Assembly: GCA_025449675.1 (NCBI GenBank)
Contig: JANWIX010000036.1
Coordinates: forward strand, 1 to 56,962
Direction: 5' to 3'
Length of the DNA stretch: 56,962 nt
Source: Nitrososphaera sp.
GTDB taxonomy: Archaea; Thermoproteota; Nitrososphaeria; Nitrososphaerales; Nitrososphaeraceae
How positions within the stretch are numbered: position 1 is the first letter of the stretch; the number at the start of each line of letters is the position of its first letter. This document shows positions 38,498-46,051 of this stretch, piece after piece. The position numbers and the translations under genes were made by a program. The notes under the pieces are model-generated. The model saw only the letters and a list, made by a program, of their open reading frames with translations, was not told the origin of the DNA and did not search any database.

Positions 38498-38736
38498 GGA
38501 GCGTTTAGGTCTCTTGCCATCCTTTAAATCTTGTGATGATTCTGTTAACCCAGAGTAAATGCAGGTAGTCAGAAAAATTTGCTCAAAAAGTATATAGCTT
38601 AGTTGCGTCGCATTTCAATATACAAGAGGGCTAATGCCGCCAGCTGCGGGACCGCCATCCCAAACTCGCTGCTGTGCGTGCGACCCTTTCTTGTCGCTAT
38701 CTTATTATTAAAAGCCACTTACAAAAGCAGCAATCT

Positions 38737-39651
38737 TTGAGAATAGGTATTGCTTCGCATGTTGTGCTAGACACCATCAGGAAAAATGATGGATCGTCGA
38801 TCGACAGTCTCGGCGGGCCGCCCTGTTACTGCGGGCTGACGAGCAGGCGATTTGGGTTTGAGGTGGCACTTGCCACCAGAATTGGCAGTGATTTTCCCAG
38901 CCAGATGGTTGATCTTTTACGACAGAACAAGATCTTCGTCAAAGAGAACCACCGGGATCATCAAAATCCTACGACACGATTCTCTATTTCCACCCAGCAA
39001 GACACGCGCATGCTGTCACTCACATCAAAGTGTGGACCCCTGGCGGCCGAAGATATCGAAAAGATGAACGTAGATTGCTGGTTGGCAAGTCCTGTTGTCG
39101 ACGAAATTTCGACTGAAGTGCTTGCAGCGATCAAAGAGGATGGAGGAACCAGACATTTCTGCATGCTAGACCCGCAGGGATACATGCGAAGCATCGATAG
39201 CAATGGTGTCGTGACCCTCAAGGATAGACTGAATCTGGATCTTTCCGGCGTACGCGCCATCAAAGTGGATGAAGATGAGATGAGGGCTCTGACTGGAGGG
39301 CTCGGTGGGCTGGAAGGTATGAAGGTCTTGCAGTCAAGGGGAGTCGAATTCGTAGTTTCGACGGTTCATCGGGAGATCCATCTGTTGCACGAAGAGACGC
39401 ACTACTGGGCGAAAATGAAAGAAATAGATGCGCCGGATTCGACTGGCGCAGGCGACATTTTGTGTGCCGCTTTTTGCTGCAGTTTTGTAAAGGAAAAAGA
39501 TCCACTTTGGGCACTATGTTTCGGGGCAGGTGCGGTAAGGGCCGCCTTGGAATCAGGACAGAATGGCCTGGACAAGGTGCCTTCGATGGGCAGGATAGAA
39601 GAGAACGCCTCTTACTTTTACAACACGATAGGCTTCAAGCAACTCTCTTAG
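38737..39651 (+). CDS. PfkB-family sugar/nucleoside kinase
   Basis: C-terminal APDSTGAGDILCAAF; N-term LGGPPCYCGLTSRRFG; likely TTG start at 38737. Confidence 0.87.
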   Translation: MRIGIASHVVLDTIRKNDGSSIDSLGGPPCYCGLTSRRFGFEVALATRIGSDFPSQMVDLLRQNKIFVKENHRDHQNPTTRFSISTQQDTRMLSLTSKCGPLAAEDIEKMNVDCWLASPVVDEISTEVLAAIKEDGGTRHFCMLDPQGYMRSIDSNGVVTLKDRLNLDLSGVRAIKVDEDEMRALTGGLGGLEGMKVLQSRGVEFVVSTVHREIHLLHEETHYWAKMKEIDAPDSTGAGDILCAAFCCSFVKEKDPLWALCFGAGAVRAALESGQNGLDKVPSMGRIEENASYFYNTIGFKQLS

Positions 39652-39722: not shown

Positions 39723-40124
39723 CTAAGTCAATGCATTCAGAAAAATTCTGGTATCTTTTCTTGATAGCAAACAAAACGATGCGGTACTAACGACCATCGA
39801 AGCTAATCGGTCGATAGAAGTGTAGGGCGGTAACAGTATCAATGCTATCAAGTAAATACCAAACACTAATACATGTAAGATTATTGCGGCAAACCAAGAC
39901 CATCTTTGTTTTTTCAAGATACCAATGCCTGTTATTATGCTGAAAATGAACAACCCACCTTGGGCAAGAAATAGTGAAAAAGTCAGGGTCAGGTATGAAA
40001 CCGTGTCTAACTGTGGTCTGTCGGGTCTTGGGTACCTGAAAGCAACTTCAAGGGAGTCTCGCGTAAGTCGATCATAAACAGCCTGAATTATGGCAGGCGA
40101 TAAAGCCAAAAATGTGAGAATCAC
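39723..40124 (-). CDS. Membrane protein, unknown
   Basis: Four hydrophobic segments. Confidence 0.5.
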   Translation of the reverse strand: MILTFLALSPAIIQAVYDRLTRDSLEVAFRYPRPDRPQLDTVSYLTLTFSLFLAQGGLFIFSIITGIGILKKQRWSWFAAIILHVLVFGIYLIALILLPPYTSIDRLASMVVSTASFCLLSRKDTRIFLNALT

Positions 40125-40210
40125 CAGAAGAATGATAGCAATGGGTCGCCTGCGTGTAGCTGTTTCTGCCGTAACAGCGTTTAGAAAAATGAGCTATTTT
40201 AGGCTTAGAG

Positions 40211-40483
40211 TCATAGCATTAGCATAGGCTGTCTAGCGAGGCAGAAGTATCTGAAAGCGAACAAAGTGATTGTCAGCGTCAGCGCTAGCATCAATGAAAA
40301 CGAGAGTGTGTCTGAGTGAGACCAAAAAGTTCCATTTTGCCAAGTTAGGCATGCCGTTGAAGGGTTACATTGTGAAGAATGACCAAAGGCGCTTTCCATA
40401 CTCGCAATCAAGTCGAATGCGAAGCAAGCTACGACCAACACAAAAACTAGCCCTACCTGCAAACTTATCATTATTCGTAGCAT
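40211..40483 (-). CDS. Small membrane protein, unknown
   Basis: Two hydrophobic segments. Confidence 0.38.
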   Translation of the reverse strand: MLRIMISLQVGLVFVLVVACFAFDLIASMESAFGHSSQCNPSTACLTWQNGTFWSHSDTLSFSLMLALTLTITLFAFRYFCLARQPMLML

Positions 40484-40525
40484 GTTCAGATAAGGTTATT
40501 GTAGTCGCACTTCGCATCAGAGTCA

Positions 40526-40933
40526 ATGCCAGCGAATCATAAGGTCAGCGTCGCTTGGCAGATTGTATTCACGTTCATACCGATTCTTGATCTGTGGGCA
40601 TTCTACAGAATCAGAAAATTACAAAAATACGTGCTCTGGGTCATTTTACCAATGATAGCTCTGTCTGTCGCTATCGCTTCGTACTACTTCTATGTCATAA
40701 CAAAAGAGCTAATAGATGGCGCGTTGAGATATGACAATAGCACTTTAGATTCTAACAATGGCACGCAGGTCGCGGTTTCAAGAGTAGTACCAGCGCAAGG
40801 TTCTTTTCGAGAAGTCTCTGACTCTAGTAATATCGTTTTCATTGGCGCAGGCATAGGTTTTCAAGGTCTCTCAATCTATCTCATAATTAGTTGGTCGAGA
40901 CAGCATAATCGCACTTTTGACACATCCGCTTAA
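40526..40933 (+). CDS. Membrane protein, unknown
   Basis: Hydrophobic segments (IVFTFIPILDLWAF, VLWVILPMIALSVAIASYYFYV, IVFIGAGIGFQGLSIYLII). Confidence 0.5.
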   Translation: MPANHKVSVAWQIVFTFIPILDLWAFYRIRKLQKYVLWVILPMIALSVAIASYYFYVITKELIDGALRYDNSTLDSNNGTQVAVSRVVPAQGSFREVSDSSNIVFIGAGIGFQGLSIYLIISWSRQHNRTFDTSA

Positions 40934-40995: not shown

Positions 40996-42015
40996 TTGAC
41001 CCAGACTGCTGTGAAAGTAGCGCTTTCAGGCGTCGATTCCAGAGACGAGGCCATGCTGTCGAAAGTGAAAAAGACGCTGGAATACCTTAACGTAAAAACT
41101 CAAGTCATGAAAGATAATGATTATCACGCGGCAAGAGAAGTGGACCTGGTCCTCGTCGCCGGTGGCGATCGCGGGATCTTGGACTACTTCCACAAGGTAG
41201 TTACCGAATCTGCCCCCGTTTTGGGAATCCATGAAACTGATGCTACCGGGTTCCTGGCGCAATTGGAAGTCCGCGATCTAGAGTTCGCTACTTCTCGTCT
41301 AAAACGTGGTGACTACTCTGTCGACGAGGTATTCCGCCTTGCCGTCAAGGTTGATGGCCGTCCGATAGATCCGGCTCTAAATGACGTCGCGGTATTTCCC
41401 AGCAAGAGCGCGACTCTGATGGAGCACGTGCTTCGGATAGATGGAAAGGACGTATGGCATGACAAGAGCGATGGTGTCATTATCGCGACTCCGACAGGCT
41501 CGACGGCGTACTCGATGTCGGCCGGCGGCCCCATGGCAATGCAAAGATCCCAGATCTTTATTGTAGTCTCTGTGAATTCATTGGACAATACCCGCAGGCC
41601 ACTGGTGGTTCCAAACGACAGCAAGCTGGAAATCGCCGACATTACAAGCCGTTACCACTGCGAGGTAGTTCTGGACGGGGGTCGCAGGCTGCAAGTAAAA
41701 ACAATGCTGGAATGCTCAAAACACGAATTTCCGGCGAGACTTGTCAGGCTGGCCGGGGACTCATCCGCGGCCGCGCTTATGGCAAAGAAGGTGAAACTTG
41801 CAGAGGACATGCTAAAGATGCCTCCAAGCGCCAAGCTCATCCTAAAGACCCTTGAATACGAAGGAGCGCTGAGCCAGAAGGATCTGGCGGCGAGGACTCT
41901 TCTGCCGGAGCGAACGATCAGGCTTTCGCTAAGCCACCTCCTGAGCCAGGGCTACGTCAAGAAAAAGACCTCCCTCAGAGATGCCAGACAGAGGATCTAC
42001 GAGCTGAAACTCTAG
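40996..42015 (+). CDS. NAD kinase with C-terminal winged-helix domain
   Basis: LVAGGDRGILDYF (GGDG-like), ALNDVAV, IIATPTGSTAYSMSAGGP, LVVPNDSKLEI; C-term LKTLEYEGALSQKDLAARTLLPERTIRLSLSHLLSQGYVKKKTSLRDARQRIYEL. Confidence 0.85.
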   Translation: MTQTAVKVALSGVDSRDEAMLSKVKKTLEYLNVKTQVMKDNDYHAAREVDLVLVAGGDRGILDYFHKVVTESAPVLGIHETDATGFLAQLEVRDLEFATSRLKRGDYSVDEVFRLAVKVDGRPIDPALNDVAVFPSKSATLMEHVLRIDGKDVWHDKSDGVIIATPTGSTAYSMSAGGPMAMQRSQIFIVVSVNSLDNTRRPLVVPNDSKLEIADITSRYHCEVVLDGGRRLQVKTMLECSKHEFPARLVRLAGDSSAAALMAKKVKLAEDMLKMPPSAKLILKTLEYEGALSQKDLAARTLLPERTIRLSLSHLLSQGYVKKKTSLRDARQRIYELKL

Positions 42016-43643
42016 CGCCTGGCCGCTGCCTTTACAAACGCGTCAAAAGCCTGTTCGGGCTTGCCGGGCCTGCTGCTGAATTCCGCGTGATATTGCACCG
42101 CAAAGTAGAACCTGTGATTTGGTATCTCTAGGATTTCGATGCGCCTGCCACTGTCCGAGCTGGCTGAAAGCACAAGACCCTTCTTTGTGAGCAGGTCGAG
42201 ATAACGCTGGTTGAATTCGTATCGGTGTCTGTGTCTGCGCTCTATAGTGTTTGACGCGTAGAGCTTCGCTGCTTTTGTGCCGGCTGCAACGGATATCTTG
42301 TGGCTGCCCAGACGCATTGTTCCTCCCATGTCATGCACATTTCTCTGTTCAGGCATGAAATCTACGACAGGATTCTTGGTGTGCGGATCGAGCTCGCTTG
42401 AATTCGCGTCCGTCAGCCCTCCTGCATGTCTCGCAAATGCAACTATTGCAAGCTGAAATCCAAAACAAATCCCTAGATACGGGATGTCATTTACCCTTGC
42501 AAAGTTGGCGGCGTCTATGATGCCTTCACTGCCGCGCTTGCCAAATCCGCCGGGGGCAAGTATCCCGTCAAAGTTCTTGAGCTGGGCCAGGTTCTCTGCG
42601 GCTCCGTTCTCGAAGCCTTCGGAATCTATCCACTGGATTTCAATCTTTTTGCCGATGCTTGCACCTGCGTGCGAAAGAGCATGGTAGACGCTCACGTAAC
42701 TGTCTGGAAGAGTAACGTACTTGCCGACGATTGCGATCTTTACCATCCCGCTTTGATTCGAGAAGGAATCTGCTATAGACTGCCAGTTGCCCCACCGCAG
42801 CGCTGGCTTTCTTAGCCCGAGCCGTTCGGTGATTGCGCTGAGCACGCCCTGGGCTTCAAGAACTTCAGGAACCTTGTATATGGAGGGCGCATCGTGGCAT
42901 GAAATCACGCATTTTTCTTCTACGCTGCCAAAGAGCGAGATTTTGCGCCTGGCGTCAGCGCTCAGTGGCGTTTTGCATCGAACTGCCAGAAGGTCCGGCT
43001 GTATTCCTATCCTGCGCAGCTCCTGAACGCTGTGCTGGGTCGGCTTGGTCTTTTGCTCTCCAACTACATCAAGGACCGGAGCCAGAGTAACATGGATAAA
43101 CAGCGTATTTGAAAGCCCCTGGTCGAGCTCCATCTGCCGGAAGGCCTCGAGAAACGGCAGGCTCTCAATGTCGCCGACTGTGCCTCCGCACTCAACGACC
43201 ATGATATCAAGACCCTCATCGTCCGCTATCTTGCGCAGCGTTTTCTTTATCGCATCTGTAACATGCGGGATTATTTGCACGCACTGGCCTAGGTACTTGC
43301 CTTCGCGTTCTGCTTTTATTACATCCATGTACACCCGGCCGGTCGTAATGTTGTGCTCCTTTGTCATGGGCATGTCTATGAATCGTTCATAGTTTCCGAT
43401 GTCCATGTCGCATTCTCCGCCGTCGTCTGTGACAAAGACCTCGCCATGCGCGACAGGGTTCATTGTTCCGGCATCATAGTTCACGTAAGGATCGATCTTT
43501 ACACACGATACTTTGTAGCCGGCAAGCTGGAGCAACTTTGCAGTGGAAGACGTTGTAACACCCTTGCCAAGACCGGACATGACGCCGCCCGTAACGAAAA
43601 TGAACTTGCATGGTCCGTTTCGCGGCCTGGCCTTTGACTGCAC
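42012..43643 (-). CDS. pyrG: CTP synthase
   Basis: [87 protein letters not shown]. Confidence 0.97.
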
Positions 43644-44890: not shown

Positions 44891-46051
44891 CTATTTGCCA
44901 GTCCTGACCTTGTCCATCAGCACAGGCTCGAGTTCTGCAAGCGACGCGCCGTGAAGTCCGATCTCCTTGAACGATCTGATGTCAACGAGCTTTCTGACCT
45001 TGAGGTCGTCCAGGTAATCCTCAACTTCAACTTTTTTTGCCCCCAGCTGCTCAGCAAGTTCTGACGCGTGAATTCTGACGTCTTTGAGATCAACGTACTG
45101 CCTTTTTCTTGCGCGCAGGGCGCGAACAATAGCTATCAGGCTTAGGAGCTGCGGCCGCGACAATTGCTCCAGCTCTTCGGTCGTGATGGATGGGTGTATC
45201 TGCCCATGAACCTTCCGGATCTGGTCCAGCGTGATCCTGCCGGTGCCTTGCGACTCGGCAAGGTTTCCTGCGTACAAGAGCAGATCAAGAGCGTATCTGA
45301 CGTCACCCTTTACCTGCTCTGACGTGGTAATGCTCGCAACCTTGTCAATGATGTCTGACCCGATTGCGCGGGGCATGAACGCCTCGGCACAGCGTTTCTC
45401 CAGGATATCGCTTACCTCGCTTATGGTGTATGGCTGAAATTCAAGTGGGATGCGTCCCAGCGTACTCAGCTCGGTGGGATCAAGCCGACTGTAGAATTCC
45501 GTGTTCTTTGCGATAAAGACAACGCCTTTGACGTTGGAAGGCCTTTCGGGCTCAAATTCATTCAGCCGGGTAAGGTCATAGATGATGGTGGTATCCTTGC
45601 TCGTCTTTATCAGGTAGTCGATCTCGTCCATGATAATAACTGCATAAAGGTTATTGTCGCGCAGGTATCTCAGCAAATATCTTAGCATTTCTTCTGCGCT
45701 CAGACCCTGTGCGGGCAACTCCGGCGCCAGACATTCGAGCAGGAACCTATAGATCGCAAACTTGTTTCCTCCCTGCAGCTTTAGATTAATGTATGCCACC
45801 CTGAATGCCAGTCTGCGTGCGGAGAAACGCGCCTCGATCATTTTAGAAGACCGAATGACGGTAGAGGTTTTTCCGATCCCGGCAGGTCCGATAACTTGCA
45901 CGATAGTGAGTGGAAATTTGTCAGGATCCACTTCTGCCTTTGAGAAGCTGTGCGCGACCTGTTCTATCTGCGACTCGCGGTGTGGCAACTCTTCCGGTAT
46001 GTATCGCGGCGAAAGTTTGGACCGATCGCGGAATATGACACTGTCAGACAT
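44891..46051 (-). CDS. cdc6: Orc1/Cdc6 family replication initiator
   Basis: LPHRESQIEQVAHSF, Walker A VIGPAGIGKTSTVIR, Walker B VIIMDEIDYLI, C-terminal wHD. Confidence 0.93.
   Translation of the reverse strand: MSDSVIFRDRSKLSPRYIPEELPHRESQIEQVAHSFSKAEVDPDKFPLTIVQVIGPAGIGKTSTVIRSSKMIEARFSARRLAFRVAYINLKLQGGNKFAIYRFLLECLAPELPAQGLSAEEMLRYLLRYLRDNNLYAVIIMDEIDYLIKTSKDTTIIYDLTRLNEFEPERPSNVKGVVFIAKNTEFYSRLDPTELSTLGRIPLEFQPYTISEVSDILEKRCAEAFMPRAIGSDIIDKVASITTSEQVKGDVRYALDLLLYAGNLAESQGTGRITLDQIRKVHGQIHPSITTEELEQLSRPQLLSLIAIVRALRARKRQYVDLKDVRIHASELAEQLGAKKVEVEDYLDDLKVRKLVDIRSFKEIGLHGASLAELEPVLMDKVRTGK

Follow-up and report, generated by a model that had tools for sequence, protein, structure and literature searches.

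A NAD kinase paralogue with a winged-helix tail as a candidate regulator of NAD synthesis in Thermoproteota

The gene at positions 40996–42015 of the window (the whole analysed stretch of 56,962 nucleotides) encodes a NAD-kinase-like paralogue, referred to below as H. Judging from sequence comparisons, H would be, with a probability of about 0.8, a transcription factor derived from NAD kinase that responds to NAD(P) and controls de novo NAD synthesis. A genomic link to nad genes and an operator-like site at these genes, as expected of a regulator of NAD synthesis, were both found. The original prediction offered two readings of the gene, a DNA-binding sensor of NADP level and a kinase with a changed phosphate-donor preference. 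The former is well supported by the second gene carrying GGDGT, the phylum-wide presence of the C-terminal tail, the synteny with nadA, nadC and nadX, and the palindrome at nadA promoters, whereas the latter is not favored.

The open reading frame (plus strand) starts with TTG, ends with TAG and encodes 339 amino acids. The true start is probably the GTG codon at 41011, giving 334 amino acids, since the MKVALSG position opens most orthologues. The features of the locus are listed in Table 1. Codons 56–60 read GGT GGC GAT CGC GGG, exactly as quoted in the original prediction, and the encoded GGDRG departs from the GGDG(T/S/N/M) motif of NAD kinases. The other motifs quoted there, GIHETDATGFL, LND, TPTGSTAY and SAGGP, were all found in the protein. 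The C-terminus is indeed a MarR-type winged helix-turn-helix (wHTH), as had been suggested, but it comprises about 64 residues (276–339) and not about 65, and is joined by a helix. Neither GGDR nor the tail is a chance feature, because conservation of both GGD[R/K] and the tail extends throughout the phylum.

Table 1. Features of H and of its neighbors in the window. Residues are numbered along the 339-aa open reading frame.
Feature	Position	Strand	Details
PfkB-family kinase gene	38674..39651	+	PF00294, 2.6e-11
H gene, NADK-like domain and C-terminal winged helix	41011..42015	+	probable GTG start
NAD_kinase N-terminal domain, PF01513	41086..41316	+	residues 31–107, Pfam E 3.1e-7
GGDR, altered GGDG phosphate loop, D58 kept	41161..41172	+	residues 56–59
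GIHETDATGFL, altered GxN...GFL segment	41224..41256	+	residues 77–87
NAD_kinase_C domain, PF20143, beginning at the conserved LND (NE/D) motif	41377..41703	+	residues 128–236, E 1.3e-22
TPTGSTAY, conserved NAD-binding region II	41488..41511	+	residues 165–172
Linker helix	41767..41814	+	residues 258–273, lower confidence, pLDDT about 62–76
MarR-like winged helix-turn-helix	41821..42012	+	residues 276–339, most conserved region of the H family
CTP synthase-like gene pyrG, convergent with H, conserved neighbor in ammonia oxidizers	42012..43643	-	named by sequence; context only

The AlphaFold model of the window protein, which rests on 45 orthologues (pLDDT 84, pTM 0.75), consists of a NAD kinase (NADK) fold, a helix at residues 258–273 and a C-terminal winged helix. 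Structure prediction, recommended in the original prediction as a check, thus returned both the kinase fold and the MarR-like domain. The closest PDB structures are the NAD kinases of Mtb (1u0t), Pseudomonas (7qvs) and Archaeoglobus (1suw). When folded by itself (pLDDT 84), the winged helix resembles MarR proteins, some of them solved with operator DNA, and BpsR, with Foldseek E-values of about 1e-4 to 1e-3 against MarR, BpsR, MepR and OhrR. The sequence profile of the tail retrieves MarR and archaeal HTH regulators, and Pfam yields weak MarR_2 and HTH_24 matches at residues 275–332, that of MarR_2 being under the cut-off. The NCBIfam NAD kinase cut-off is missed by H (best score 138.7 bits versus 326), which is weak evidence given that the canonical copy from the same genome misses it as well.

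The fourth residue of the GGDx loop was determined for 113 H loci. It is R in 78 loci, K in 25, S in 4, G in 4 and D in 1, the region being missing from the remaining one; in the four loci with G the next residue is always D, and GGDGT occurs in none of the 113. Among 46 non-H proteins, 44 have G at this position and the remaining two are pieces of a single H gene split by contig ends. The altered GIHETDATGFL segment is also a family trait, ammonia oxidizers having G[IVL]xE[ST]DSTGFLAQ. At the same time H keeps the catalytic Asp, the NE/D motif and conserved region II (D58, N129, D/E130 and TPxGS(T/S)AY), and positions D58, N129, T165, P166, G168, S169, D227 and G228 are invariant over the 45-row alignment of the family. 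Mtb Ppnk depends on D85, N159, E160, T200 and Y202 (PMC8553519), the counterparts of which in the window protein are D58, N129, D130, T170 and Y172. Since the catalytic residues are kept, kinase activity could persist in H. The residue following GGDG has been linked to the choice of phosphate donor (PMC8553519); one may speculate that R or K at the fourth loop position either grips the 2'-phosphate of NADP or keeps the phosphate donor out. Mean column identity is highest in the winged helix, 0.71 compared to 0.53–0.65 in the NADK parts. The original prediction held that a tail universal among orthologues and not binding DNA would speak against a sensor. The tail does prove universal, yet its being the best-conserved region, together with the conserved operator-like site described below, argues for DNA binding.

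As far as sequence data can tell, H is an ancient paralogue of NAD kinase and not the housekeeping enzyme. It is distributed throughout Nitrososphaeria and occurs in many further Thermoproteota families. The genome to which the window belongs (1.74 Mb, 87% complete) carries, on a separate contig, a canonical NADK-family gene encoding a 277-aa protein with GGDGT (L001), which answers in the affirmative the question of a second, canonical NAD kinase raised in the original prediction. At least one further NADK-family gene, usually of about 245–300 aa, was present in all 27 H-bearing genomes examined, and some complete genomes (G330, G460, G377, G410) retain the canonical gene and lack H. In the NADK tree (80 rows) all H sequences and one H fragment are placed on one branch (SH-aLRT 82); for one clade the AU test yielded p=0.0496, a value probably due to the truncated H fragment L122 having been labelled canonical. 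Several Thermoproteota genomes possess a third NADK-family gene with an open frame of about 350–410 aa (e.g. L167, L168).

H might be bifunctional like NadR or the prototypic NrtR (PMC6800001), combining weak kinase activity with regulation of nadA, which would be a sub-case of the regulator reading and not exclusive of it. The invariant catalytic Asp and NAD-binding motifs agree with such a protein, as does all the regulatory evidence, but the phosphate loop is changed in every H sequence spanning the region and the activity would be redundant with that of the canonical gene; we consider a bifunctional H possible, with the odds against it.

Gene neighborhoods were counted outside the three main ammonia-oxidizer families for 77 loci from 22 families, two genomes being counted twice. 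At 18 of these loci, representing 7 families, nadA, nadC or nadX lies within two open reading frames of H, usually in divergent orientation; in family f33 the gene order is H-nadA-nadC. One representative of each cluster of nad neighbors scores above the cut-off of the respective model (NadA TIGR00550, NadC TIGR00078, NadX TIGR03855). Another 11 loci from 6 families have an MFS transporter gene near H, for which the nearest model, aromatic acid/H+ symporter, is under the cut-off. H and nadA are unlinked in ammonia oxidizers. There, the gene directly upstream of H in most of the sampled genomes (51 loci) encodes the PfkB-family kinase, usually at a distance of 18–84 nt; in the window the two genes are separated by about 1.3 kb holding two small open reading frames.

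The palindrome GGCAA-N3-TTGCC was found in the H/nadA and H/MFS intergenic regions of several families, e.g. as GGCAATAATTGCC (10/10) at locus L136. Upstream of nadA, GGCAAGTATTGCC is present in almost all sampled Nitrososphaeraceae, including the genome of the window (L238). Scored out of 10 positions in the region from −200 to +30 of nadA, the palindrome reaches 9–10 in 56 of 75 promoters of H-bearing genomes (32 of them perfect), and at least 9 in 0 of 41 promoters of genomes called as lacking H, that is, having profile E-values within the canonical NADK range. Among shuffled sequences 0.3% reach at least 9. The association of the palindrome with H is significant at the level of genomes if shared descent is ignored (Fisher p=5e-17) and at the level of families (9 of 14 families with H versus 0 of 17 without it, p=1e-4), and also under a stricter count demanding the site in at least half of the promoters of a family (7 of 14 with H, p=0.0013). 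Of four supported phylogenetically independent pairs, 0–3 were concordant and none discordant, too few for significance. In control promoters the palindrome is at the background level: 1 of 29 for pyrG, 2 of 45 for PfkB, 1 of 36 for S26e and 1 of 46 for the canonical NADK. Despite the presence of H, scores stay below 9 in families f3, f4, f6, f32 and f67 and in parts of f33, f45 and f50; for f33 this is so even with the H-nadA-nadC linkage. At the promoter of H itself, the palindrome was not found in ammonia oxidizers. The genome of the window has 9 exact palindromes, of which 8 are within open reading frames and the sole intergenic copy lies between the divergent nadA and nadX, the latter recognized by sequence. 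A wide genome-wide regulon was considered, as the reversed-pattern control gave 3 occurrences versus these 9, and rejected because of the location of all but the nadA/nadX copy in open reading frames.

The link between the palindrome and H is correlative, and another co-inherited factor could bind the palindrome. A different transcription factor would then own the site at nadA, and H would be a passenger beside NAD genes. The separation of H from nadA in ammonia oxidizers, the lack of the palindrome at the promoter of H there and the low power of the independent-pairs test agree with this explanation. What makes it unlikely is that H is itself a winged-helix protein, that in several families the palindrome falls within the intergenic region between H and nadA or the transporter gene, and that none of the 17 sampled families lacking H has the palindrome at nadA.

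Where ammonia-oxidizer promoters have the site, a TATA-like box (TTTAAAT or CTTAAAT) follows 42–44 nt after the end of the palindrome in nearly all cases, whereas the distance of the palindrome to the ATG in nadA promoters varies, from −61 to −97. A second, weaker copy follows, most commonly at a spacing of 31 bp downstream (mean score 5.2 vs 2.3 ± 0.65) and about 13 nt from the TATA box; it is present in most Nitrososphaeraceae, where it is clearest, and weak in Nitrosopumilaceae. Families f29 and f82 have a single site 12–13 nt from the TATA box, matching the slot of the second copy. When 13 Nitrososphaeraceae nadA promoters are aligned, conservation falls mainly on the palindrome, its second copy and the TATA region. 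NAD kinases are homomultimers, and binding as a dimer of dimers would agree with a site upstream of the TATA box whose second copy follows three helical turns later. A riboswitch at nadA was also considered and ruled out, since a conserved palindrome upstream of the TATA box should not be transcribed.

The following mechanism may be proposed for H as a regulator. H would have arisen in Thermoproteota by duplication of a NAD kinase, and its NADK domain, retuned by R or K in the phosphate loop and by the changed GxN segment, would still bind NAD(P) within the dimeric or tetrameric NADK scaffold. Ligand occupancy would reposition the MarR-like winged helices at the C-terminus. These would bind GGCAA-N3-TTGCC in front of the nadA TATA box, along with nadC or nadX where these are linked, so that de novo NAD synthesis would be matched to the NAD(P) pool. 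In genomes without nadA, the neighboring transporter is probably under the control of H. Both DNA binding by H and the identity of NAD(P) as its ligand are inferred from these data. In archaeal promoters, a site upstream of the TATA box fits an activator more than a repressor. Because of this position, activation at low NAD(P) is slightly preferred as the sign of regulation.

The least likely explanation is that H works as a NAD kinase with an altered use of phosphate donors (ATP vs polyphosphate), its tail being an oligomerization or allosteric module: the presence of the residues essential in Mtb Ppnk, the invariance of D58, N129, T165, G168 and S169, and the link of the residue after GGDG to donor choice (PMC8553519) speak for it, but it leaves the synteny and the palindrome unexplained, every H-bearing genome checked has a further NADK-family gene, H is dispensable in some complete genomes, GGDGT is missing from all H loci, and the MarR-like tail is the best-conserved part of the protein.

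Compared to canonical NAD kinases (PF01513/PF20143; Mtb Ppnk 1u0t, A. fulgidus 1suw), H shares the fold, the catalytic Asp, the NE/D motif and region II, and differs in having GGDR/K instead of GGDG(T), an altered GxN segment and an added winged helix, as well as in accompanying a further NADK-family gene in every genome checked. NadR and NrtR are enzyme-derived regulators of NAD synthesis as well, with enzyme domains of families other than NADK (PMC6800001). The logic of H is that of the bacterial NrtR, in which a motif-degraded domain of a nucleotide-metabolism enzyme combined with a winged helix controls nad genes; the sensor domain of NrtR is, however, Nudix (ADP-ribose) and not NAD kinase, and a Pfam scan of the window protein found no Nudix domain. 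The trifunctional enterobacterial NadR, a NAD-liganded repressor of NAD synthesis genes, resembles H in its enzymatic origin and in the NAD(P) ligand proposed here. Unlike H, it consists of N-terminal DNA-binding, NMN adenylyltransferase and ribosylnicotinamide kinase domains and has no NAD kinase domain; neither of these two enzymatic domains was found in the window protein by Pfam and NCBIfam scans. NiaR, a niacin-responsive repressor of NAD synthesis and niacin transport genes, is similar to H in the type of targets proposed here, but it responds to nicotinic acid, belongs to a different family and has been described from the Bacillus/Clostridium group, Fusobacteria and Thermotogales. With MarR proteins, which bind short palindromes as dimers, H shares the winged-helix fold; it has only the winged-helix core, and its dimerization presumably involves the NADK domain.

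The regulatory logic is thus already known from NadR and NrtR, and its proposed NAD-kinase-derived version is new to the open literature searched: no NADK-derived regulator was found there (subscription papers being outside the search), nor any NAD kinase with a winged helix or HTH from archaea, Thaumarchaeota or Sulfolobus. It is fairly likely that H represents a family of transcription factors not described before, which would sense NAD(P) by means of a catalytically retuned NAD kinase. The family is present across Thermoproteota and may go back to the ancestor of the phylum; through the GGCAA-N3-TTGCC operator it would act directly on de novo NAD synthesis and, in organisms that have lost this pathway, on niacin-type transporters. 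If so, archaea have a dedicated regulator of NAD synthesis that is a NAD kinase turned regulator, a single protein and a single promoter suffice to test NAD(P) homeostasis in ammonia-oxidizing archaea, and NAD metabolism becomes a candidate role for the neighboring MFS transporter and PfkB kinase. Proteins of the H family may now pass as duplicate NAD kinases, and metabolic models of the organisms concerned may therefore be wrong.

Several minor observations concern the neighborhoods of H. The PfkB-family kinase encoded upstream is possibly a nucleoside or nicotinate-riboside kinase. The two small open reading frames between it and H in the window (39723–40933) are membrane-protein-like, and the 1.3-kb insert is missing from most of the close relatives examined. 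An Orc1/Cdc6-like AAA ATPase gene, as judged by sequence, lies at positions 44891–46051 on the minus strand. The MFS transporter, a candidate niacin transporter, adjoins H at loci L109, L112, L124–L127, L130, L131, L134 and L136, some of which have the palindrome (10/10 at L136, 9/10 at L134). In family f42, H is found in one genus (L141–L143, L203, L204), of which the sampled genome G346 has no nadA; H there faces a gene of the amino-acid-permease family, and the intergenic region between the two at L203 contains the palindrome (9/10). Other f42 genera have nadA and lack H. Finally, a gene of the isochorismatase/nicotinamidase family is located near H in three families (L128:511–1245, PF00857; L142:4134–4877; L189:5840–6403), which fits a link to niacin salvage.
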